From positions 27,316,001-27,380,000 of the forward strand of contig JBAIAC010000051.1 in NCBI GenBank assembly GCA_037349315.1: 64,000 nt of DNA, written 5' to 3'. Both the position numbers and the translations under genes were made by a program. Shown one piece after another: positions 5,728-42,374 of the stretch. The stretch is from Chelydra serpentina (taxonomy: Eukaryota; Chordata; Testudines; Chelydridae). Position 1 is the stretch's first letter. The number at the start of each line of letters is the position of its first letter. The notes under the pieces were generated by a model. The model worked only from the letters and a program-made list of their open reading frames with translations, had not been told where the DNA came from and searched no databases.

Positions 5728-6585
5728 GGGCCTGGGAAGGATCCAGAGAGAGAATTCGAACCCCACGAGATCTATGCACTATGGCAATTCCCTCCTGGCC
5801 AACACCAAATGAAAGCCATTCAGACAAGATGCAAATGACTGGGTAACACAGCCACAGCCAAGGAAAACCACTCAATGTCCAGGATGCCTGACATAATCCC
5901 CGCCACTGCTGGGTCTGCCTCTTGCCAGCAACAAGGCAGAGCTCCCAGCCCGCTTGTAGTGGGTGTTCTCTGCAGCATCGCTCAAGAACTAACGACATTC
6001 CCACTTTGACAACAGCACTTGAAACAAGCTTGAAAAATACCCAGGCAAGACAAAACATCCCCCCAGATACACTGTCACTCTAGTGCCTTGTGAGATGATA
6101 TTTTCTGTACAAAGAATCAGTTTGTATCAATGTTTTATATTTATATAGCTCGGTTCTAAAGGCTCCCCATATTTTAAACCCCCTTTGTCATAAAAAGAAG
6201 CTGTAGATTAGATACTTAAACAAACATCTCTGTTCCCCAGAAGCCCATTTTGGAAACAACTGGTCTGGAGACCTGAGCCAACTTTGTATTCTTTTGACCG
6301 ATGTGAACTAGAGAGTATGAAGTATATTTGTTGATTTATTCCACTCTGTAACTAGTTAGAAGAGCCATAATTTAAACTCCCTTTCTATTCATTAGATTTG
6401 GATGGTTATTTTTCTTTTGCTAACTCCCAGCCCCTTGATAATTTTATTTTTGGTTTAATTTTTTGCGGCGGAGGGGCTATCAGGTAGGGAGCAGGAAAAC
6501 AATTTGTTTTATGAACCAAAAGTTCATGCATGAAAATCTTTTTTTTCTTTTGTGAAATAAACATCACAGACAATATTTGTTTCCT
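5728..6585 (+). other. SNTA1: SNTA1 3' UTR with AATAAA polyadenylation signal
   Basis: Non-coding sequence follows the TAG stop. The first convincing canonical polyadenylation signal is AATAAA at 6556-6561, so cleavage is expected roughly 15-30 bases later. The UTR is AT-rich toward its end, with long T runs near 6535-6550. The end position is an estimate. No other gene signal is seen before the repeats that begin near 7.0 kb. Confidence 0.6.
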
Positions 6586-7044
6586 GATTTATGCTGAGTA
6601 GTAGCAATTCTGTATTTCAAGTCTGATGCTTTGATTTAATTTTGCCAAAGGATGTCGTGAAAGGGAGCCAACAGGACTGTGAGGTTCTGACTGGAGAGGA
6701 TTGAAACAATAGGAGAGAGTTCTGCAATAATGTCATTGACTTTTTTCTATTGTGGTGTGGGAGGGGTGTCAGACTTTGAAATTCTAGCAATGTTCATCGA
6801 AATTGAAAATATTTCCGCTTGCTCTAGATCTGATAGGAAGAGAGATTTCAGCAGAGGGGACATTTCTGATTTTAACATAACTGGTGCTATTTAGGATTTG
6901 GGAAGAAGAATTAGTTGCTCTGATTATGTTGGAAGTGCTGTGCTCTGCTAATCTTCTTTCTCTCAGGCTTTGGCCCCATGGAGCTTGCCCAGACCTTTTC
7001 TTAATGGGCAAACGTGGGTTTTGTAATTAATAGTTGTAGCTCTA

Positions 7045-11390: not shown

Positions 11391-11792
11391 AAAGATGTTA
11401 AACCGGATAACTTAGCCCTGGTCTACACTACGAGTTTAGGTCAAATGTATTAGCGTTATATCAATTGATCCGTTCACCTGTCCACACGACTAAGACATTT
11501 ACATCAACTTCTAGGGCTCTTAAAATCGATTTCTCCACTCCACCCCCAACGAGGGGATTAGCGCTAAAATCGATATTGCCGAGTTGAATTAGGGTTAGTG
11601 CGGACGCAATTTGACGGTATTAGCCTCCTGGATCTATCCCACAGCGCACCATTTGACTGCTCTGGACAGCAGTCTGAGCTCGAATGCTCTGCCCAGGTAG
11701 ACAGGAAAAGCCCTGCGAACTTTTGAATTTCATTTCCTGTTTGGCCAGCGTGGTGAGCTGCAGGTGAGTGCAGATCTCATCAGCAGACCATG

Positions 11793-12333
11793 ATGGAGTC
11801 CCAGAACCGAAGATGAGCTCCAGCGTGGACCGAGCATGAGGTATGCGATCTGATCGCTGTATGGGGAGACGAAACCGTGGTAGCAGAACTACGGTCCAAA
11901 AGAAGAAATGCCAATACATATGTCAAAGTCTCCAAGGGCATGCAGGACAGAGGCTACAACAGGGACGCGCAACAGTGCCGCGTGAAAATTAAGGAGCTCA
12001 GGCAAGCCTACCAAAAAACCTGAGATGCAAACAGCCGCTCTGGGTCAGAGCCCCAGACATGCCGCTTCTATGACGAGCTGCATGCCATTCTCGGGGGTGC
12101 AGCCAGCACTAACCCACCCATGTTCTATGACTCCGTATGTGGATCATCAGAAACCACCGAGGAGCATTTTCGGGAAGAGGAAGATGATGATAATGATGCT
12201 GAAAATAGCGCACAGACACAGCAAGGAAGCAGAGAAGCCCTTTTCCCCGACAGCCAGGAACTCTTTGTCACCGTGGAGCCAGTACCCTACGAACCCACCC
12301 AAGGCGTGCTTGAAGGCGGAGAAGGGACCTCTG
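11793..12333 (+). pseudogene. Harbinger copy 1 Myb/SANT-like gene, exon 1 (two stops)
   Basis: From ATG at 11793 the frame reads MESQNRR, stop, APAWTEHEV then CDLIAVWGDE, RSKRRNANTYVKVSKGM, GYNRDAQQCRVKIKELRQAY and a second stop. A stretch rich in Asp/Glu follows. The Trp-containing helix pattern is the Myb/SANT-like DNA-binding domain that Harbinger elements encode to bring transposase to their termini. The exon ends at a GGTGAGTG donor (12334), homologous to the donor in copy 2. Both stops are TGA and could be CpG or point decay. Exons 1 and 2 total 996 bp, a multiple of three. Confidence 0.85.
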
Positions 12334-12414
12334 GTGAGTGTACCTCTGTTAAATTAATACATGTTTTATAAGCAAACGTGTTTAATAATTAATTCACGGC
12401 CAGTACAGCTACAG

Positions 12415-12680
12415 CTACTGGAAAAGTCAGTTAACATGTCCGGGGATGGAGCAGAAATCCTCTGGGGACATCTCCAGAAAGCTCTCCTGGATGTACTCCC
12501 AAAGCCTTTGCAAAAGGTTTCTGGGGAGGGCAGCCTTATCCTGTGCTCCGTGGTAACACACTCTACCACGCCAGGCCAGTAGCACGTAGTCTGGAATCAT
12601 TGCATTGCAAAGCATGGCGGCATTCAAGCAACATCTGTTCTTTATCTCTCTGTTATCCTCAGAAGAGTGATATCATTCAT
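12415..12680 (-). pseudogene. Harbinger copy 1 third ORF, broken
   Basis: It lies in the Myb intron on the opposite strand. The start reads MNDITLLRITER then a stop. After a deletion or frameshift the conserved block is NAAMLCNAMIPDYVLLAWRG, RVCYHGAQDKAALPRN and YIQESFLEMSPEDF. It aligns with copy 2's open ORF at 38635-38925 (AAMLCKAMIPEYLQLAWRG and so on). The terminal LFQ-stop corresponds to copy 2's LFE-stop. Family function is unknown. Confidence 0.8.
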
Positions 12681-12819
12681 GTTCACCTGGTTGAAATAGG
12701 GGAATTTTATTAAGGGTGCATTCAGAGGGGTCCGTCCCTGCTAGGCTGTTTGCCTGTGGCTGAACGGAAATCTTACCTGCTGTTACCGACGCGGTGGGGG
12801 GAGGGGGAACAGCAAACAT

Positions 12820-12853
12820 CTTGGATGTGTGTGTGTGTGTGGGGGGGGGGGGT
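12820..12853. repeat. GT microsatellite and G-run
   Basis: A (GT)n tract at about 12827-12840 runs directly into about twelve consecutive G bases ending at 12852. It lies within Harbinger copy 1 and has no coding role. Confidence 0.8.
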
Positions 12854-13225
12854 CGATTAGGTTCGCGCTGCACGTTAACCCGAAAACCGCCGCCCCTCCC
12901 TTTTCAATTGCCAACCCATTTTAAATGGCCAACCCAATGGCTGTTTGTTATGGGAAATGAGGGGGTTGCTGTTTGAAACCATTCCCACATGTTCTGAAGG
13001 TTAAAGAAGCCAATAGACTGTGGCTTACCATGGCTGCCTGCAAGCCGAATTCTGTTGCCCGCCGGCCTTGCTTGTGTGATCTCTCACACCAAACCGGCAG
13101 ACCCTCAATATAACAGGCAAAGTGCAACCTTGGACCAAATGCACATGTGCTATGTAATGTTTGGAGCATTGTTCTCTAATATGTGTCTTTTAAACTACTC
13201 CTCTCCCGTTTGTTTCCTCCCGCAG

Positions 13226-13680
13226 CTGTAAATGTTTCAACGCTCCCCCTTTCATCACCGTCCCAGAGGCTAGTGAAGATTAGAAGTGAAAAAAAAAGGA
13301 ATCGAGACGATATGTTCTCAGATCTCATGCAGTCCTCCCACAGTGAAACGGCCCAGCAGAATGCGTGGAGGCAGACAATGTTAGAATCCAGAAAGGAACA
13401 ATTTGATCGCGAGGAAAGTTGGCGGGCTGAAGACAGTAGGTGGCGTCAGCATTCTGAGAGAAGGCAGGATGCAATTCTGAGGCTACTGGAGGATCAAACA
13501 AAAATCCTCCGGCTTATGGCTGAGGAAAGGCATATGGTTGAGGAAAGGCCGCCTGAGCCCAGACCGCCGCTACAGCCCCTGTGTAACCAACAGCCCTCCT
13601 CCCCAAGTCCCATAACCTCATCACCTAGACACCCAAGAACGCGTTTGGGCGGCCTCCGTGCACCCAACCACTCAAGCTAA
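13226..13680 (+). pseudogene. Harbinger copy 1 Myb-like gene, exon 2
   Basis: After a CTCCCGCAG acceptor (ending 13225) the frame reads VNVSTLPLSSPSQRL, then SEKKRNRDDMFSDLMQ, a long charged helix (REESWRAEDSRWRQHSERRQ) and a Pro-rich tail to TAA at 13680. It aligns with copy 2 exon 2 through SPSQRL, KKRxRDDMFS(D/E)LM and the RWRQ region. The helical part probably serves in oligomerisation or transposase contact (inference). This exon is open although its partner exon is not. Confidence 0.85.
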
Positions 13681-13938
13681 GAGAACTGTCCAAGCAATAA
13701 AAGGCTGGCATTCAATAAGTTTTAAAGTGCTGTGTGTCCTTGTCCTTCCCTCATCCCCTCTTCCACCACCCATCCTGGTGCTTCCCTTCCTCCACCACCC
13801 ATCCCGGGCAACCTTTGCAGTTATCCCCCTATTTCCCCCTATTTCTTTGAATTAATAAAAAATGCATGATTTTTAAGCAACAATGACTTTATTTCCTCTG
13901 CAAGCGGTGACCGAGGGGGGGAGGGGAGGGCGGTTCGG

Positions 13939-14790
13939 TTACAGGGAAGTAGAGTGAATCATGGGGCAGGGCTTTTCATTAAGGGGAAAAAAACAGAACT
14001 TTCCCACAGCATCCTGGCCATTCATGAAACTGGTTTTCAAAGCTTCCCTGATGCGCAACGCACCCTGCTGTACTCTTGTAATCGCCCTGGTGTCTGGCTG
14101 CGCATAAGCAGCGGCCAGGTGATTTGCCTCAACCTCCCACCCCGCCATAAACGTCTCCTCCTTACTCTCACAGATATTGTGGAGCGCACAGCAAGCAGTA
14201 ATAATAATGGGAATATTGGTTTCGCTGAGGTCTAACCTAGTCAATAAACTGCGCCAGCGTGCCTTTAAACGTCCAAATGCACATTCCACCACCATTCTGC
14301 ACTTGCTCAGCCTATAGTTGAAAAGGTCCTGACTACAGTCCAGGCTTCCTGTGTATGGCTTCTATTAAGGGGTAGGCTGGGTCCCCAAGGATAACTATAG
14401 GCACCTCAACATCCCCAACGGTTATTTTGTGGTCTGGGAAGAAAGTTCCTTGCTGCAGCAGCTGAAACAGACCAGAGTTCCTGAAGATGCAAGCGTCATG
14501 TACCTTTCCCGGCCATCCCACGTTGATGTTGGTGAAACGTCCCTTGTGATCCACCAGTGCTTGCAGAACTATTGAAAAGTAACCCTTTCAGTTTATGTAC
14601 TCGCTGGCTTGGTGGTCCGGTGCCAAGATAGGGATATGGGTTCCATCTATCGCCCCACCACAGTTCGGGAACCCCATTGCTGAAAAGCCATCCACTATGA
14701 CCTGCACATTTCCCAGAGTCACAACCCTTGGTACCAGCAGCTCGGTGATCGCCTTGGCTACTTGCATCACAGCAATATGGCGCCCGTATG
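13939..14790 (-). pseudogene. Harbinger copy 1 transposase, N-terminally truncated and frameshifted
   Basis: The relic starts near AVMQVAKAITELLVPRVVTL and continues GFPNCGGAIDGTHIPIL, a stop after YIN, KGYFSIVLQALVDHKGRF, NVGWPGKVHDACIFRNSGLF and GDVEVPIVILGDPAYPL. It then shifts frame into KCRMVVECAFGRLKARWRSL. Thus the DDE_4-type elements (D in AIDGTH, D in KVHDA, E in VVECAFG) can all be traced across two frames. Roughly the first 165 residues present in copy 2 are missing. The GDPAYPL block at 14366-14386 is present here but absent from copy 2. Confidence 0.88.
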
Positions 14791-15291
14791 AAAAAAGGCG
14801 CGAAAGGATTTTTTGCTCCCCCCTCAGTTGCTTTCACAGAGGGAGGGGGGACTCCCCACTAGACCTCATGTCCAGGTGTACGCTGGAGACATACGGTCAT
14901 TGTGAGCTGAGCAGGCTCCATGCTTGCCGTAGCAAACCCGGAAACCCCGGAAAAAAGGCGTGAAAAAGGTTGCTTTCATGGTGGGAGGGAGGGAGGCAGG
15001 GGGGATGGCTTGACGACATGTACCCAGAACCACCAGCGACAATGTTTTCTGCCCCATCAGGCTTTGGGATCGCAACCCAGAATTCCAATGGACGGCGGAG
15101 ACTGCGGGAACTGTGGGATAGCTACCCGCAATGCAATGCTCCGAAAGTCGACGCTAGCTCCGATACTGTGGACACAGTCCGTCGACCTAATGGCCTTAAT
15201 GGTGACACACACAATCGATTCCATAACATTGGGATTTAAAAGATCGACTTCTATAACTTCGACCTAATTCCGTAGTGTAGACGTACCCTTA

Positions 15292-34200: not shown

Positions 34201-35094
34201 CCCCCACTGTCAGGAATGGCCCTGCCCCCTTTGGCTGCTAACAGCTCAGCTGTGTAAAGTGCTTGGAGAGCTATGGATGAAAAGCTAGGTGCTTAAGATT
34301 AGCGTTATCGATGCATAGTCGGGCATAGGGGCACCAGTTTAATAATACTGCGTAGGGCCCCATAAATCCTAAGGACGGCCCTGCCTAAGTGACATCAGTT
34401 AAGCCATAAAAATGCACATTTCTACTGGAATAAGAGTGTCCATACAGGGGTTATACTGGTACGATGATAGCAGTTTAAACGCACATCTTAGCTTATACTA
34501 GAAATACTTTCCTGTGCAGACAAGGCCTTAGAATGCAGCTACATTTGAGAGTTTAGCTTTTCTTATTTCCAGGAACTTCGCTGAAATTGGTTTTTTGACC
34601 CTAGCCTGAGTTCCATGTTGTAACAAAACCCGATGAGTTCTGTGTGCTGTCCATGTCCATTACAAAAATCCCAACCATGTGACAATGGGAACATATCACA
34701 GCGTTTGTTTCTTCTAAGGGTATGTCTACACTACGAGAGTAGTTCAATTTTTCTTAAACCAAACTTGTGAAACCGATATTACAAAGTCGAGCGTGCGAAT
34801 CCACACCAAGGACATTAATTCGAATTTGTGAGTCCACGGTAACGGGGCAAGCGTCGACATTGCAAGCGGTGCACTGTGGGTAGCTATCCCACAGTTCCCG
34901 CAGTCCCCGGTGCCCACTGGACTTCTGGGTGTAGCCCCCAGTACCTTCTGTGGCCAAAAATGTGTCAAGGGTGGTTTGGGTAAATGTCGTCATTCGACCC
35001 ACACTCCCGCCCTTCCTCCGTGAAAGCGCCGGCGGGCAATTAATTCGCGCCCTTTTCTGGTGATTAACAGCGCGGACGCCACAGGACAGCGAGC

Positions 35095-36318
35095 ATGGAG
35101 CCCTCCGCGATTATCGCTGCTGTTCTGTCCGTTGTCAACACCTCGCACCTTATCGTCCACCTTTTCCAGAGGCAGATGCTGAGAAATAGGGTGAGGAGGC
35201 AACAGAAGCTCCGAGAGGACATGAACTCTGAGAGGGGCACAGACCTCTCGCAAAGCACGGGACCCCGGACCCTAGACATTATGGTGGCAATGGGTCACGT
35301 TGATCCTGTGGAATGGCGATTCTGGGCAAGGGAAACAAGCACTGACTGGTGGGACCGCGTAGTGCTGCAGGTCTGGGATGAATCCCAGTGGCTGCGAAAC
35401 TTTCGGCTGCGTAAGGGCACTTTCCTGGAACTTTGTGAGTTGCTGTCCCCTGCCCTGAAGCGCCAAGACACCCGAATGAAAGCTGCCTTGACTATCCAGA
35501 AGCGAGTGGCCATAGACCTGTGGAAGCTTGCAATGCCTGACAGCTACCGGTCAGTTGCGAATCACTTTGGAGTGGGCAAATCTACCGTGGGGGTTGCTGT
35601 GATGCAAGTTGCCCATGCAATCATTGACCTGCTGCTCTCAAAGGTAGTGACCCTTGGAGACGTGCAGGTGATCATAGATGGCTTTTCTGCTATGGGATTC
35701 CCAAACTGTGGCGGGGCTATTGATGGGACACACATCCCTATCCTGGGACTGGACCACCAGGGCAGCCAGTACATTAACCGAAAGGGCTATTTTTCTATGG
35801 TGCTGCAAGCACTAGTGGACCATAAAGGACGTTTTACCAACATCAACGTCGGATGGCCGGGCAAGGTTCATGATGCTCGTGTTTTCAAAAACTCTGGTCT
35901 GTTTAGACGGCTGCAGGAGGGTATTTACTTCCCGGACCACAAAATAAGTGTTGGGGATGTGGAGATGCCTATAGCCCTGGACACTGAAAAGGAGCTCTTC
36001 AACTACAGGCTGAGCAAGTGCAGAATGGTTGTGGAGTGTGCTTTTGGCCATCTCAAAGGAAGATGGAGAAGCTTACTTACTCGCTCCGATCTCAGCCAAA
36101 CAAATATCCCCATTGTGATTGCAGTGTGCTGTGTGCTCCACAATCTCTGTGAGAGCAAGGGGGAGACGTTTATGGCGGGGTGGGAGGTTGAGGCAAATCG
36201 CTTGGCTGCTGATTACGCACAGCCGGACACCCGGGCGATTAGAAGATCCCAGCGGGATGCGCTGCGCATCCGGGAAGCTTTGAAAGCTAGCTTCCAGACT
36301 GACCAGGGTAACCAGTGA
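35095..36318 (+). CDS. Harbinger transposase (HARBI1-like DDE nuclease), open, missing one conserved block
   Basis: This 407-residue protein has a basic N-terminus, a helix-turn-helix-like segment about 150-172 (YRSVANHFGVGKSTVGVAVM) and a DDE_4-type nuclease domain. The apparent triad is Asp210 (GGAIDGTHIPIL), Asp260 (GWPGKVHDARVF) and Glu314 (MVVECAFGHLKG). It would cut the element at its termini with the Myb-like partner. The start ATG has a good context (GAGCATGG) and no other Met lies upstream in frame near it. Oddity: after Pro292-Ile293 the text jumps to ALDTEKELFNYRL, whereas copy 1 has VILGDPAYPL and about ten more residues here. An in-frame deletion of roughly 20 residues therefore likely inactivates the enzyme. 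Confidence 0.92.
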   Translation: MEPSAIIAAVLSVVNTSHLIVHLFQRQMLRNRVRRQQKLREDMNSERGTDLSQSTGPRTLDIMVAMGHVDPVEWRFWARETSTDWWDRVVLQVWDESQWLRNFRLRKGTFLELCELLSPALKRQDTRMKAALTIQKRVAIDLWKLAMPDSYRSVANHFGVGKSTVGVAVMQVAHAIIDLLLSKVVTLGDVQVIIDGFSAMGFPNCGGAIDGTHIPILGLDHQGSQYINRKGYFSMVLQALVDHKGRFTNINVGWPGKVHDARVFKNSGLFRRLQEGIYFPDHKISVGDVEMPIALDTEKELFNYRLSKCRMVVECAFGHLKGRWRSLLTRSDLSQTNIPIVIAVCCVLHNLCESKGETFMAGWEVEANRLAADYAQPDTRAIRRSQRDALRIREALKASFQTDQGNQ

Positions 36319-37077
36319 CTGTTACGCTTGTTTAAACAGAAGCTGAACCTGCCCCCATTTCTTTATCCAGTTACTGTTGCCTATCCTCTCCAATTACCAA
36401 CCCCCTTTACCCCCTTCATTCAACGCTTTAAAAGTACAATAAAGGAAACATTGTTTATTAAAACCGTTTTCTTTATTAATGATTTCTCGGTTAAGGGTTT
36501 AACCTGGGGCGCATACTGCGGTTGGGGAGCGGGTGCAGTGATGGAAAGGACGCTTCCAAACTCGGGGAATGACAGGCTCCTGCTCCCAGAGCAGTCCGCA
36601 GTGCTGGACTGCTTGTTTCAAGGGAGCCTGCAACCGCTCCTGTTCGCAACTCTGTGAGGGGGGGCCTGTGTGACTTTTTGGCCATGGATTGTGGCCACAG
36701 ATCCCCTGCTGCATGGATCTGTCATGCAGGCTATTGGCCGCAAAAGATCTGCAGCCACCCTCCCCCACCAGAAAGTCACAGAGCCCCCCCCACAGAGAAC
36801 ATGAAAACCCCCATCCCAGAATGACAAGTGTGCCTAGTGAATTCAATGTGAGTGTTTTTTTCTGTTGAACCTTTCCCCCTGTCTGTACCCTGGTACAGGC
36901 GCCTGTCGTCTCAAATTACAAACCCCCTTGCCCCCTCCCCCCAAATCAAACCGTCCTGTGAAAGAAAGTAAAGGAACAGCACTGTACAAACATTTTTATT
37001 AAGGGGAGCATAGTTTTGAGATGAAACTTGGACGGGGACTGGGGTGGGGTGCGGTTGGAGGGAAGGAAAGAACCCAT
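36319..37077. other. Spacer between convergent Harbinger genes with poly(A) signals and hairpin
   Basis: AATAAA at 36440-36445 can serve the transposase, and TTTTTATTA at 36988-36996 can serve the minus-strand Myb-like gene. An imperfect long hairpin lies at about 36657-36796: GGGGGCCTGTGTGACTTT against AGAAAGTCACAGAGCCCCC. No protein-coding signal. Confidence 0.6.
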
Positions 37078-37559
37078 CTAAATTTTTGGGAATGAGAGCC
37101 TTCTGCTACTGGAGCAGTCCGCAGGGGTGGGGTGATTGTTTCCATGGCCCCTGCCTCCCCTCGTTCCAGTGACTTTGGGTGAGGGGGGGATTGGACTTTG
37201 TGGCGGAGGAGGGCGGTTGGAAATAACATACAGAGGGGCTCTTTCCTCCTGTCTCCGGTCCTGGAGAACGTCTACCAGGCGCCGGAGCGTGTCCGTTTGC
37301 TCCCTCATTAGTCCCAGCAGCGTTTGAGTCACCTGCTGGTCTTCCTGCCGCCACCTGTCCTCACGAGCTTCAGCCCTCTGCTCCCGTTCGCTGACTGCTG
37401 GCTCGGACCTTGAGACATCCTCTCTCCGCTGTGCCGCCTCCTTTCGGGAACAGACCATCAGTTCGGAAAACATGTCATCCCGGGTTCTTTTTTTGCGCCG
37501 CCTGATCAGCGCAAGTCTCTGGGAGGGTGATCCACGGGTAGGGCAGGAGACACTCGCAG
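37078..37559 (-). CDS. Harbinger Myb-like protein, exon 2
   Basis: The acceptor TCCCATCCCACAG ends at 37560. The exon reads AASVSCPTRGSPSQRLALIR, RRKKRTRDDMFSELMVCSRK, a long charged helix (SEREQRAEAREDRWRQEDQQ), LLGLMREQTDTLRRLVDVLQ and a Pro/Ser-rich tail to the stop. The KKRTRDDMF basic block is a likely nuclear-localisation signal, and the helix is a likely coiled coil (inference). It aligns with copy 1 exon 2. The intron (37560-41405) has been enlarged by the minisatellite and CR1. Confidence 0.87.
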
Positions 37560-37894
37560 CTGTGGGATGGGAGAAAGGGAGTGAATTCCTCAGAAAGATA
37601 CATTTTCCCGAACAATGCCTATACTCTTTCCCTGTGAATAAGACCATGCACACTACCTATCACATGTGCACGTACTACAAGGTCGAATATTATGTCTTTA
37701 TACTGAGTGCCTGGGGTCCTGGTGTGCAGATCACACAAGCGGTTCTGGACACTGGAAATCGGCTCTCTGGAGACCATGGTAAGCCGTTGCCATTGGACTG
37801 CTGAGAGCTTACTTCACAGCAGTGCTCTACTCCCATGTTTCAAGCACAGTTCCTAGCGGTGACCAGTTCCTGCTGTTCCCAAAACCGCTCATCT

Positions 37895-38520
37895 ACAATG
37901 GCTCGCCTACCCGCCACCCCCGCAACGCGCAGCCGTTCCCGGGAATTGTCCCTGCCCGTGAACCGCTCTGTTTGAACGGCTCGCCTACCCTTTCCCCCAC
38001 TCCGCGTGGCCGGTCCCGGGAAATGTACGTGCCCGCGAACCGCTCTGTTTGAATGGCTCGCCTACCCGCCACCCCCCCAACGCGCAGCCGTTCCCGGGAA
38101 ATGTCCCTGCCCGCGAACCGCTCTGTTTGAACGGCTCGCCTACCCTTTCCCCCCCTCTGCGTGGCCGGTCCCGGGAAATGTACGTGCCCGCGAACCACTC
38201 TGTTTGAATGGCTCGCCTACCCTTTCCCTCCCTCCGCGCGGCCAGTCCCGGGAAATGTACTTGCCCGCGAACCGCTCTGTTTGAACGGCTCTCCTACCCT
38301 TTTTCCCCCTCCGCGTGGCCGGTCCCGGCAAATGTACATGCCTGCGAACCACTCTGTTTGAACGACTCGCCTACCCTTTCCCCCCCTCCGCATGGCCGGT
38401 CCCGGGAAATGTACGTGCACGTGAACCGCTCTGTTTGAACGGCTCGTGTACCATTTACAACCCTCCGCGTGGCCGGTCCCGGGAACTCTCCCTGCCTGCG
38501 CACCGCTAAGTTTCAATGGT
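37895..38520. repeat. 77-bp minisatellite in the Harbinger Myb intron
   Basis: About eight units recur every 77-78 bp; the landmark TTTGAA occurs at 37971, 38048, 38126, 38203, 38280, 38357, 38434 and (as TTTCAA) 38511. Units contain CTCGCCTACCC, CCGGTCCCGGGAAATGTACG and GAACCGCTCTGTTTGAACGG. Two variants alternate at the left (cgcaacgcgcagccgttccc type versus ccgcgtggccggtcccggg type), then the second dominates. The array is absent at the matching place of copy 1 and lies just upstream of the third ORF. Confidence 0.92.
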
Positions 38521-38634
38521 TAGCATCCCAGCTCCCGCCCCCACGCGTGGCTGGAAACCGCCGGGTGTCATTCTTTAAAGGAAAAATCAAGAAGTCACTA
38601 TACTAAAAAAAACACTCATTCAAACCAGGGCACC

Positions 38635-38925
38635 ATGACTGATATCACTCTGATGAGGATTATGGAGACAGACAAAGACCGCATGTTGCGTGAATGCCAG
38701 CAAACCTCGGGGACGTATGCCGCCATGCTATGCAAGGCAATGATACCAGAGTACCTGCAGCTTGCATGGCGCGGAAAAGTATCCTACCATGGAGGAGACA
38801 ATAAGGCCGCTCTCCCTGGGAACCTGATGCAAAAGCTTTCACTGTACCTCCAGGAGAGCTTCGCGGAGATCTCCGATGGGGAATCCTCCTCTATCCCCAT
38901 ACATATTGACAGACTTTTCGAGTAG
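38635..38925 (+). CDS. Harbinger third ORF, small protein of unknown function
   Basis: A 96-codon ORF starts in a good context (CACCATGA) and ends with TAG at 38923. It reads MTDITLMRIMETDKDRMLRE, TYAAMLCKAMIPEYLQLAWR, KVSYHGGDNKAALPGNLMQK and LYLQESFAEISDGESSSIPI. It is nested antisense in the Myb gene's intron. Copy 1 carries the broken homologue in the same place and orientation. Among the aligned codons at least a dozen differ only synonymously (for example cta/ctt, ata/att, cgc/cgt, gga/ggt, gta/gtg, cat/cac), which suggests that it encoded a selected protein. I do not recognise the family. Small, helical and Met/Leu-rich, it may be a regulator or accessory factor (speculative). Confidence 0.72.
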   Translation: MTDITLMRIMETDKDRMLRECQQTSGTYAAMLCKAMIPEYLQLAWRGKVSYHGGDNKAALPGNLMQKLSLYLQESFAEISDGESSSIPIHIDRLFE

Positions 38926-41305
38926 TTCATAGAATCATAGAATCTCAGGGTTGGAAGGGACCTCAGGAGGTCATCTAGTCCAACCCCCTGCTCAAAGCAG
39001 GACCAACCCCAACTAAATCATCCCAGCCAGGGCTTTGTCAAGCCTGACCTTAAAAACCTCTAAGGAAGGAGATTCCACCACCTCCCTAGGTAACCCATTC
39101 CAGTGCTTCACCACCCTACTAGTGAAAAAGTTTTTCCTAATATCCAACCTAAACCTCCCCCTCTGCAACTTGAGACCATTACTCCTTGTTCTGTCATCTT
39201 CTCCCACTGAGAACAGTCTAGATCCATCCTCTTTGGAACCCCTTTTCAGGTAGTTGAAAGCAGCTATCAAATCCCCCCTCACTCTTCTCTTCTGCAGGCT
39301 AAACAATCCCAGTTCCCTCAGCCTCTCCTCATAAGTCATGTGCTCCAGTTCCCTAATCATTTTTGTTGCCCTCCACTGGACTCTTTCCAATCTATCCACA
39401 TCCTTCTTGTAGTGTGGGCCCCAAAACTGGACACAGTACTCCAAATGAGGCCTCACCAGTGCCGAATAGAGGGGAATGATCACGTCCCTCGATCTGCTGG
39501 AAATGCCCCTACTTATACAACCCAAAATGCCATTAGCCTTCTTGGCAACAAGGGCACACTGTTGACTCATATTCAGCTTTTCATCCACTGTAACCCCTAG
39601 GTCCTTTTTTGCAGAACTGCTGCCCAGCCATTCGGTCCCTAGTCTGTAGCAGTGCATGAGATTCTTCCGTCCTAAGTGCAGGGCTCTGCACTTGTCTTTG
39701 TTGAACCTCATCAGATTTCTTTTGGCCCTATCCTCTAATTTGTCTAGGTCCTTCTGTACCCTATCCCTACCCTCCAGCATATCAACCACTCCTCCCAGTT
39801 TAGTGTCATCTGCAAACTTGCTAAGGGTGCAGTCCACACCATCCTCCAGATCGTTAATGAAGATATTGAACAAAACCGGCCCCAGCACCGACCCTTGGGG
39901 CACTCCACTTGATACCGGCTGCCAACTAGATATGGAACCATTGATCACTACCCGTTGAGCCCGACCATCTAGCCAGTTTTCTATCCACATTACCGTCCAT
40001 TCATCCAGCCCATATTTCTTTAACTTGCTGGCAAGAATACTGTGGGAGACTGTATCAAAAGCTTTGCTAAAGTCAAGAAATAGCACATCCACTGCTTTCC
40101 CCTCATCCACAGAGCCAGTTATCTCATCATAGAAGGCAATTAGGTTAGTCAGGCATGACTTGCCCTTGGTGAATCCATGCTGACTGTTCCTGATCACTTT
40201 CCCCTCCTTTAAGTGGTTCAGAATTGATTCCTTGAGGACCTGTTCCATGATTTTTCCAGGGACTGAGGTGAGACTGACTGGCCTGTAGTTCCCCGGATCT
40301 TCCTTCTTCCCTTTTTTAAGGATGGGCACTACATTAGCTTTTTTCCAGTCATCCGGGACCTCCCCCGATTGCCATGATTTTTCAAAGATAATGGCCAATG
40401 GCTCTGCAATCTCATCGGCCAACTCCTTTAGCACCCTCGGATGCAGTGCATCCGGCCCCATGGACTTGTGCTCATCCAGATTTTCTAAATAGTCCCGAAC
40501 TATTTCTTCCTCCACAGAGGGCTGGTCACCTCCTCCCCATACCGTGCTGCGGAGTGCAACTGTCTGGGAGCTGACCTTGTCTGTGAAGACAGAGGCAAAA
40601 AAAGCATTGAGTACACTAGCTTTCTCCACATCCTCTGTCACTAGGTTCCCTTCCTCATTCAGCAAGGGGCCCACACTTTCCTTGACTTTCTTCTTGTTGC
40701 TAACATACCTGAAGAAACCCTTCTTGTTACTCCTAACATCTCCAGCTACCTGCAACTCCAAGTGTGATTTGGCCTTCCTAATTTCACTCCTGCATGCCTG
40801 AGCAATACTTTTATACTCCTCCCTGGTCATTTGTCCAATATTCCACTTCTTGTAAGCTGCTTTTTTGTGTTTAAGACGAGCAAGGATTTCACTGTTAAGC
40901 CAAGCTGGTCGCCTGCCATATTTGCTTTTCTTTCTACACATCGGGATGGTTTGTTCCTGCAACCTCAATAAGGATTCTTTAAAATACAGCCAACTTTCCT
41001 CGACTCCTTTCCCCGTCATGTTATTCTCCCAGGGGACCTTGCCCATCAGTTCCCTGAGGGAGTCGAAGTCTGCTTTTCTGAAGTCCAGGGTCTCTGTTCT
41101 ACTGCTCTCCTTTCTTCCTTGTGTCAGGATCCTGAACTCGACCATCTCATGGTCACTGCCTCCCAGGTTCCCATCCACTATTGCTTCCTCTACTATTTCT
41201 TCCCTGTTTGTGAGCAGCAGGTCAAGAAGAGCTTTTCCCCTAGTTGGTTCCTCCAGCACTTGCACCAGGAAATTGTCCCCTACACTTTCCAAAAACTTCC
41301 TGGGA
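38926..41305 (-). mobile_element. CR1 LINE, 5'-truncated, young, inserted in Harbinger copy 2
   Basis: The 3' end is at the left, starting one base after the third ORF's stop codon, with the tail TTCATAGAATCATAGAATC. The 5' side breaks within the endonuclease domain near 41305 (reads [14 protein letters not shown]). The uninterrupted ORF of more than 750 codons and matching terminal sequence show a recent insertion. It contributes nothing to Harbinger function but enlarges the Myb intron by about 2.4 kb. Confidence 0.95.
39013..41292 (-). CDS. CR1 ORF2 (endonuclease C-terminus plus full reverse transcriptase)
   Basis: A 759-codon open frame without stops; the protein proper begins upstream, truncated, so the first codon (TTG) is not a real start. 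It contains [20 protein letters not shown] and GGSDHEM (endonuclease), [69 protein letters not shown] (about 405-424), [20 protein letters not shown] and the catalytic FADD at about 493-496. C-terminal [20 protein letters not shown] and [10 protein letters not shown] complete it. The RT is apparently intact. Without the N-terminal endonuclease and 5' UTR the copy cannot mobilise itself. Confidence 0.92.
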
Positions 41306-41405
41306 ACGACTCAAAACGAAAGCGCCTATGGCAAATTAAGCAATAAAAACACATTGCTAACACACCATGCCTATTCTATTCCAAATAAATGTTTAAAACA
41401 CTGAC

Positions 41406-41955
41406 CTGCTGATCCTTCGCCTGGTTCCTGGTCCGGGATGCTGCCTTGGGAGGGTTCGTAGGGGATCTCAGTGAGGGTGATGAACAGATCCTGGCTGTCG
41501 GGGAAATCAGCAGTGAAAGCGCTGTCGACTGCCTCGTCCTCCTCCTCTCCTTCCTCTTCTTCACCGTCCGCAAAAACTTCAGACGACGTGGCCGTAGATA
41601 AGACCCCGTCGTTGGAGTCCACGGACACTGGTGGGGTAGTGGTGGCAGCACCACCGAGCATAGCATGCAGTGCCTCGTAAAAACGGCATGTGTGTGGCTG
41701 TGATCTGGAGCGTCCGTTGGACTCTTTGGTCTTCTGATACGCCTGTCGCAGCTCCTTGTTTTTCACGCGGCACTGCGTTGCATCCCGGCTGTATCCTCTC
41801 TCCGTCATGGCTTTTGAGATCTTCTTGTAGATCTTCGCATTCCGTCTTTTCGATCGCATCTCCGAAAGCACGGACTCATCGCCCCACACAGCAATGAGAT
41901 CCAAGACTTCCCGATCAGTCCATGCTGGGGCCCTCTTTCTATTCTGCGATTGCAT
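41406..41955 (-). CDS. Harbinger Myb/SANT-like DNA-binding protein, exon 1
   Basis: From ATG at 41955 it reads MQSQNRKRAPAWTDREVLDL, IAVWGDESVLSEMRSKRRNA, YKKISKAMTERGYSRDATQC and RVKNKELRQAYQKTK. This is a Myb/SANT-like trihelix domain over about residues 8-85 that should bind the element's sub-terminal sites and import transposase into the nucleus. A Glu-rich stretch (GEEEEGEEEDEAV) follows. The donor is GTCAGT at 41405, and the split codon joins exon 2 to give Ala. The frame is open upstream to 42063, but the Met at 41955 is the one matching copy 1. Exons 1 and 2 make 343 codons. Confidence 0.88.
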
Positions 41956-42374
41956 GGTCACCTCTGCTGGAGAGCTCTGCATCGTTGCCAGTGCTGCTGA
42001 GCTCGCCACAATGTCCAAACAGGAAATGAGATTCAAACTGGCCAGACAGGAAAAGGAATTCACATTTTCCCGGGGCTTTTCCTGAGTGGCAGGTCAGAGC
42101 ATCTGACCACGGATTGCTGTCCAAAGCGTCCACTGAGTGGTGCACTGTGGGATAGCTCCCGGAGCTATTAGCGTCGAATACCGTCCACAGTAACATGAAT
42201 TTGAATGGCCATGTCGAATTTAGCGCTACTCCCCTCGTCGGGGAGGAGTACAGAAATCGAATTAAAGAGTCATTTATGTTGAAATAAATAGCTTCGTAAT
42301 GTGGACGGGTGCAGGGTAAAATCGAGTTAACGCTGCTAAATTCGACATAAAGTCCTAGTGTAGACCAGGCCTAA

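Follow-up and report, generated by a model that had tools for sequence, protein, structure and literature searches.

A third, apparently BEN-like coding sequence nested in the Myb intron of an abundant turtle DNA transposon

Most members of the PHIS superfamily of DNA transposons carry two open reading frames (ORFs) per element, as described in the available extracts of PMC4482050, which also record one group, NuwaII, from one turtle and give TWA as the PIF/Harbinger target. Two ORFs are likewise typical in a teleost survey of PIF/Harbinger, as far as its extracts go (PMC9179366). The DNA analysed here is a stretch of 64,000 nucleotides from the turtle Chelydra serpentina (contig JBAIAC010000051.1, positions 27,316,001 to 27,380,000), called the window below. 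It contains two copies of a transposon encoding a transposase and a Myb-like protein. Both copies carry, in the same place, a third coding sequence, here named ORF3, as a preliminary description of this DNA had claimed. In copy 2 it is open over 96 codons, ATG to TAG (38635..38925, plus strand; recognised from its ORF and from selection, fold and profile evidence), and in copy 1 a broken relic was found by sequence comparison (12415..12680, minus strand). ORF3 lies on the transposase strand inside the intron of the Myb-like gene, and this nested antisense position was found again in the copies examined. We consider it likely that ORF3 is a conserved, BEN-like 3' terminal exon of the transposase strand, within the Myb intron, which is joined to an upstream segment by splicing.

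Conservation of ORF3 between transposon families

ORF3 belongs to the regular make-up of a DNA transposon that is abundant in this turtle. When the 2.28-Gb genome was searched at the DNA level with ORF3 as query, 2413 first-look candidates came up, and the best 40 of these, the window copy included, were scored; each was 97-100% identical across the full 291 nt. The order transposase, Myb exon 2, ORF3, Myb exon 1 was identical in all 20 copies retrieved with 4.8-kb flanks (the long copies). The longer transposase frame, with no start codon required, is open in six of these 20 and is altered in copy L014. In this family, A, 36 of the 39 copies outside the window, ranked by DNA similarity, have an open ORF3. 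Copy 1 belongs to the older family B, for which 40 matches were scored (39 outside the window) and 20 retrieved. The full 96-codon frame is kept in 8 of the 20 and the remainder are closed by decay or have lost the start. Closure or absence of ORF3 in most full-length members, which would have told against the preliminary description, is not what family A shows. Two further sets, family C and a group D that is older and mixed, were reached through profile relatives; their 8 and 12 retrieved copies were picked from rows without stops, and openness carries no evidential weight there. The share of intact ORF3 is based on copies ranked by ORF3 similarity and is biased toward young copies, as is the stop-free ORF3 in 147 of 150 scored rows, the best of 13091 candidates. 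Family A is young, with about three differences per copy. Eight upstream stretches of families B-D gave a transposase match in seven and a Myb exon 2 match in six; L076 matches neither and L075 is without the Myb exon 2 match. The species-named profile relatives of ORF3 (12 of 21) are all from turtles.

Past selection on the protein had been proposed from the two window copies, with at least a dozen purely synonymous codon differences. The count is 14 synonymous-only against 26 non-synonymous codons among 67 compared, and this two-copy test is modest alone (P 0.05 for identical residues, P 0.017 for third-position excess). The majority sequences of A and B, the latter built from the 11 of 21 rows that are full-length, differ at 65 nt, of which 17, 14 and 34 fall at codon positions 1, 2 and 3. 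The pairwise ratio of non-synonymous to synonymous substitution rates (dN/dS, or omega; NG86) is 0.27 for A-B, 0.38 for A-C and 0.29 for B-C; comparing A, B and C with seven copies of group D gives 0.25-0.34. Shuffling gave P values of 0.00015 and 0.0001 for A-B (two runs), 0.007 for A-C and 0.002 for B-C. When all six frames were compared between A and B, the largest synonymous excess was in the ORF3 frame, which has no stop in either majority sequence. Within group D the single-copy omega is 0.32-1.01, and values up to 1.01 are expected because much of the difference is single-copy decay; L058, L059, L061, L067 and L068 were excluded from the omega table. Shared changes were counted repeatedly in the within-family difference counts.

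Because dN/dS between the families is 0.25-0.38, and thus not near 1 over many copies, ORF3 is judged from its sequence to be protein-coding and under purifying selection, in agreement with the proposal. Between the window copies dN/dS is about 0.17 for the transposase, 0.15 for Myb exon 1, 0.34 for Myb exon 2 and 0.47 for ORF3 (0.40 on its cleanly aligned part); judged by this pair of copies, constraint on ORF3 seems weaker than on the transposase enzyme.

A predicted BEN-like fold of the ORF3 product

BEN domains occur in chromatin factors and some viral proteins. The window ORF3 protein alone gave no match in Pfam or the protein database, only chance matches in the PDB and no match in viral and prokaryote contigs, and relatives were reached only with a multi-family profile. 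A first AlphaFold model, from a two-row alignment, was poor (pLDDT 56). A structure search with the predicted ORF3 fold ranked eleven entries at the top that are all BEN. The predicted model has the five helices of the BEN fold, with a short helix 5 (residues 87-95). Comparison of the ORF3 profile with turtle BEN domains by hhalign gave a score of 30.3 (probability 66%, P 5.6e-5), which was reached by none of 150 shuffles; the reversed control scored 9.8. The BEN profile was made from six of nine retrieved BEN stretches, three partial ones (L080-L082) being left out. Against the four BEND3-like repeats alone the score was 25.4 (probability 29%), and against the two other BEN exons alone it was 11.9, which is no signal.

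It weighs against a BEN assignment that the cut-off of the Pfam BEN family (PF10523) was missed, with one of the 21 members at E 0.19 and no match for the window protein. A BEN family search of the genome listed 15 matches, none at a retrieved ORF3 locus, and profile searches of the PDB did not find a BEN match. The fold had not been recognised in the preliminary description, which called for hidden Markov model and structure searches; structure ranking and profile matching now point to BEN, although Pfam BEN barely detects it, and ORF3 looks to encode a BEN-like domain. Structural alignments give it 12-18% identity with chains of BEND3 and BANP, and 8-11% with NACC1 and BEND6. The predicted helical layout and the core pattern are common to the ORF3 model and BEND3, BANP, NACC1 and BEND6 as presented in extracts of PMC11472053, the BEND3 repeats being closest. 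Compared with the BEN proteins in those extracts, ORF3 differs in that its model has only a short C-terminal helix 5, the helix that reads DNA, and in that it is borne on a transposon (PMC11472053).

Splice signals, start codon and upstream partner

ORF3 in copy 2 is preceded by a splice acceptor AG (38627-38628) and six exon nucleotides, GGCACC, before the ATG (38627..38634 together, plus strand), in phase 0 with ORF3. An AG directly before ORF3 was found in all 57 audited copies (20 of A, 21 of B, 8 of C and 8 of D). With the junction marked by a slash, the printed copies of families A-C read CAG/GGCACCATG, CAG/GTGACCATG and CAG/GTCACCATG, and the group D type is TTTCCCCTAG/GTGACCCTATGTGAT. 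L058, L059, L061 and L067 are outside this tally; L059 and L061 nonetheless show TAG. L058 and L067 represent a D-like variant in which the acceptor lies in a different context (TTTTCCACAG) and the start is of the VILA type, as in the Chelonia model P0005.

None of the 12 group D copies has ATG at the position of the ORF3 start codon, and the acceptor's own TAG closes the frame in 10 of the 12. A frame bounded by the acceptor TAG and without ATG depends on an exon further upstream that joins it in phase 0. In 20 of 20 copies of A, 19 of 21 of B, 7 of 8 of C and 5 of 8 of D, AATAAA or ATTAAA follows the stop, or the matched stretch, at a distance of at most 150 nt, and this poly(A) signal is located before Myb exon 1. 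In copy 2 it is AATAAA at 41342..41347 (plus strand), displaced downstream by a CR1 insertion. These signals suggest that ORF3 is probably a 3' terminal exon rather than a whole gene. The claim of a third gene thus stands as to a third coding sequence, but "gene" should probably read "exon", because the older group is without a start codon and its frame starts at a conserved acceptor.

Candidates for the upstream partner come from gene models of other turtles among the 21 profile matches, which are published predictions. In P0009 (Malaclemys, isoform X2) an N-terminal transposase piece ending DRIVLQ is fused to V-STNDITLL. P0014 (Chelonia) has a transposase-like HFWAQETSTDW ahead of ORF3, and in P0011 (Lepidochelys, partial) the DDE domain is joined to ORF3 with extra upstream residues, the acceptor at 38628 being unused. 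The boundary of P0009 is the same as that of a candidate splice donor in the transposase ORF of copy 2, CAG/GTCTGG (35371..35372, plus strand, phase 0, at VVLQ/V), whose GT is kept in 7 of the 10 copies that were compared. A conserved strong donor was sought in the transposase ORF and not found, both VLQ/V and GWPGK/V being weak. The donor at 35371 is thus weak and not universal, and the partner exon on the transposase side is a candidate only. Other models join ORF3 to host genes. P0007, a Rab-3C isoform, and P0008, a CDK6 isoform, have ORF3 at their end (RAB3C and CDK6 gene models), and P0021 begins at the ORF3 ATG and continues into a SPRY-type protein (RFP-like zinc finger protein model); all three are candidate exonisations of ORF3 pieces.

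We infer that in Chelydra serpentina a transcript from the transposase side is probably spliced into ORF3, skipping both the catalytic region and Myb exon 2, which lies antisense to it. Unspliced, the same transcript would give the transposase; spliced, it would give a BEN-bearing protein ending before Myb exon 1. The segment joined to the BEN domain would probably be an N-terminal transposase piece or a short leader, and the Kozak-like ATG in families A-C could also allow the BEN domain alone. The likeliest role of the product would be that of a built-in, non-catalytic regulator of the element that binds its partners or its own DNA and chromatin, a role proposed tentatively and with somewhat less than even confidence. 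More doubtful is the fuller proposal that alternative splicing into the antisense-nested exon yields a transposase N-terminal and BEN protein regulating the element's own mobility, and that the BEN exon has been seeded abundantly through turtle genomes, with host genes such as CDK6 and RAB3C splicing into it.

A stand-alone third gene would instead have its promoter in the CpG-rich minisatellite just upstream of ORF3 (37883..38554, units of about 78 bp), start at the ATG at 38635 and give a 96-aa BEN-like protein that acts alone. These tandem repeats, variable in length among copies, are a possible promoter or binding site, and their place directly upstream fits such a gene, as do the ACCATG context in printed copies of A, B and C, the constant length of 96 codons over three families, the poly(A) signal after ORF3 and the start of model P0021 at the ORF3 ATG. 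The missing ATG in 12 of 12 group D copies, 10 of which start their frame at the acceptor, and the acceptor AG retained in A-C as well, speak against it, and we regard it as unlikely.

That ORF3 is essentially a gene-trap exon, capturing and terminating host transcripts such as RAB3C and CDK6 with a secondary role in the transposon, agrees with the two host gene models that terminate in ORF3. These junctions are models rather than expression data, and a mere trap does not need the selection on residues seen across families, so that this explanation is very improbable. A frame open by chance, in a conserved non-coding stretch or a family that is too young, can be practically discounted: the youth of family A makes its open frames weak evidence alone, but omega of 0.25-0.38 between families, the A-B shuffle (P about 1e-4), the leading position of the ORF3 frame among six and the stop-free A and B majorities all oppose it.

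Element copies, target sites and known systems

Copy 2 extends over 34718..42371 (7.65 kb including the CR1 insertion) with TAA on both flanks, and copy 1 over 11415..15288 in the opposite orientation with TTA flanks. In both copies the Myb-like and transposase genes are convergent. Copy 2 has the transposase ORF at 35095..36318 (plus strand, 407 aa; Pfam DDE_Tnp_4, 2.5e-29), Myb exon 2 at 37078..37559 (minus strand; acceptor and ORF) and Myb exon 1 at 41406..42063 (minus strand, start approximate; Pfam Myb_DNA-bind_4, 4.5e-21). By splice signals read by eye, the Myb intron of copy 2 covers about 37560-41405 and that of copy 1 about 12334-13225. ORF3 of copy 1 is broken: it contains a 2-nt and a 23-nt gap, each of which shifts the frame, and a stop close to its end. 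The copy 2 transposase is open yet 20 residues shorter than that of L012 (407 vs 427 aa); it is probably inactive because the missing residues fall in the DDE domain. Directly after the ORF3 stop of copy 2 a CR1 retrotransposon is inserted (38928..41301, bounds approximate), which has a long open frame of 759 codons (39013-41292, minus strand). None of the 20 long copies has CR1 at this position, and their next intron piece begins 6 nt past the ORF3 stop.

Target sites were counted in 19 of the 20 long copies, L015 being left out. In L015 the family A element is directly adjoined by a truncated element (6020-6727) that belongs to another family and has pieces of ORF3 and Myb exon 1. Contig C34 carries both L023 and L024, at a distance of about 20 kb; they appear to be one duplicated element including its flanks. 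Identical TNA was found on both sides in 16 of the 19 copies (TAA in 9, TCA in 3, TTA in 3 and TGA in 1), 12 of the 16 having the full CTNAG; L014, L017 and L022 have no matching pair. The NuwaII pattern of C/TNA/G with a 3-bp duplication is thus present, and so is the combination of a DDE transposase with a Myb/SANT protein (Pfam; upstream stretches of families B-D). A strict TWA-only target, as in PIF/Harbinger, is not seen. Because of the TCA and TGA targets besides TWA, the element fits NuwaII better than strict PIF/Harbinger, so that the earlier name Harbinger holds for the transposase and Myb pair but not for the targets.

In listings and extracts of the open-licence literature on BEN with transposon, transposase or Harbinger, no transposon bearing a BEN domain was found; where BEN and Harbinger occur together, the mention is confined to a reference and a table entry. 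Listings and extracts of the open-licence literature on turtle/Myb, NuwaII or additional-ORF transposons, a scope outside Repbase, gave no third protein. The wording "third ORF" was met once in such extracts and refers to a long terminal repeat element. If the present reading is true, a selected, transposon-borne BEN exon would be a third component for PHIS transposons. It would also be a natural supply of BEN exons for host genes, and would raise the question of BEN domain movement between hosts and mobile DNA.

The P element of Drosophila gives, from one pre-mRNA, transposase or, by different splicing, a truncated regulator; it is an analogy only to the alternative splicing proposed for the ORF3 element, and the P element is not known to carry a BEN domain. 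In Drosophila mod(mdg4) a BEN isoform is made through an alternative 3' exon, as proposed here, but in a host gene rather than a transposon. The element shares with PIF/Harbinger the transposase and Myb-like gene pair and differs in its TCA and TGA targets and in having more than the two ORFs typical there, as far as the extracts of PMC4482050 and PMC9179366 describe them. With NuwaII, as given in the extracts of PMC4482050, it shares a DDE transposase with a Myb/SANT protein, the TNA target and termini starting with GG, and it differs by the third, BEN-like coding exon nested antisense in the Myb intron.
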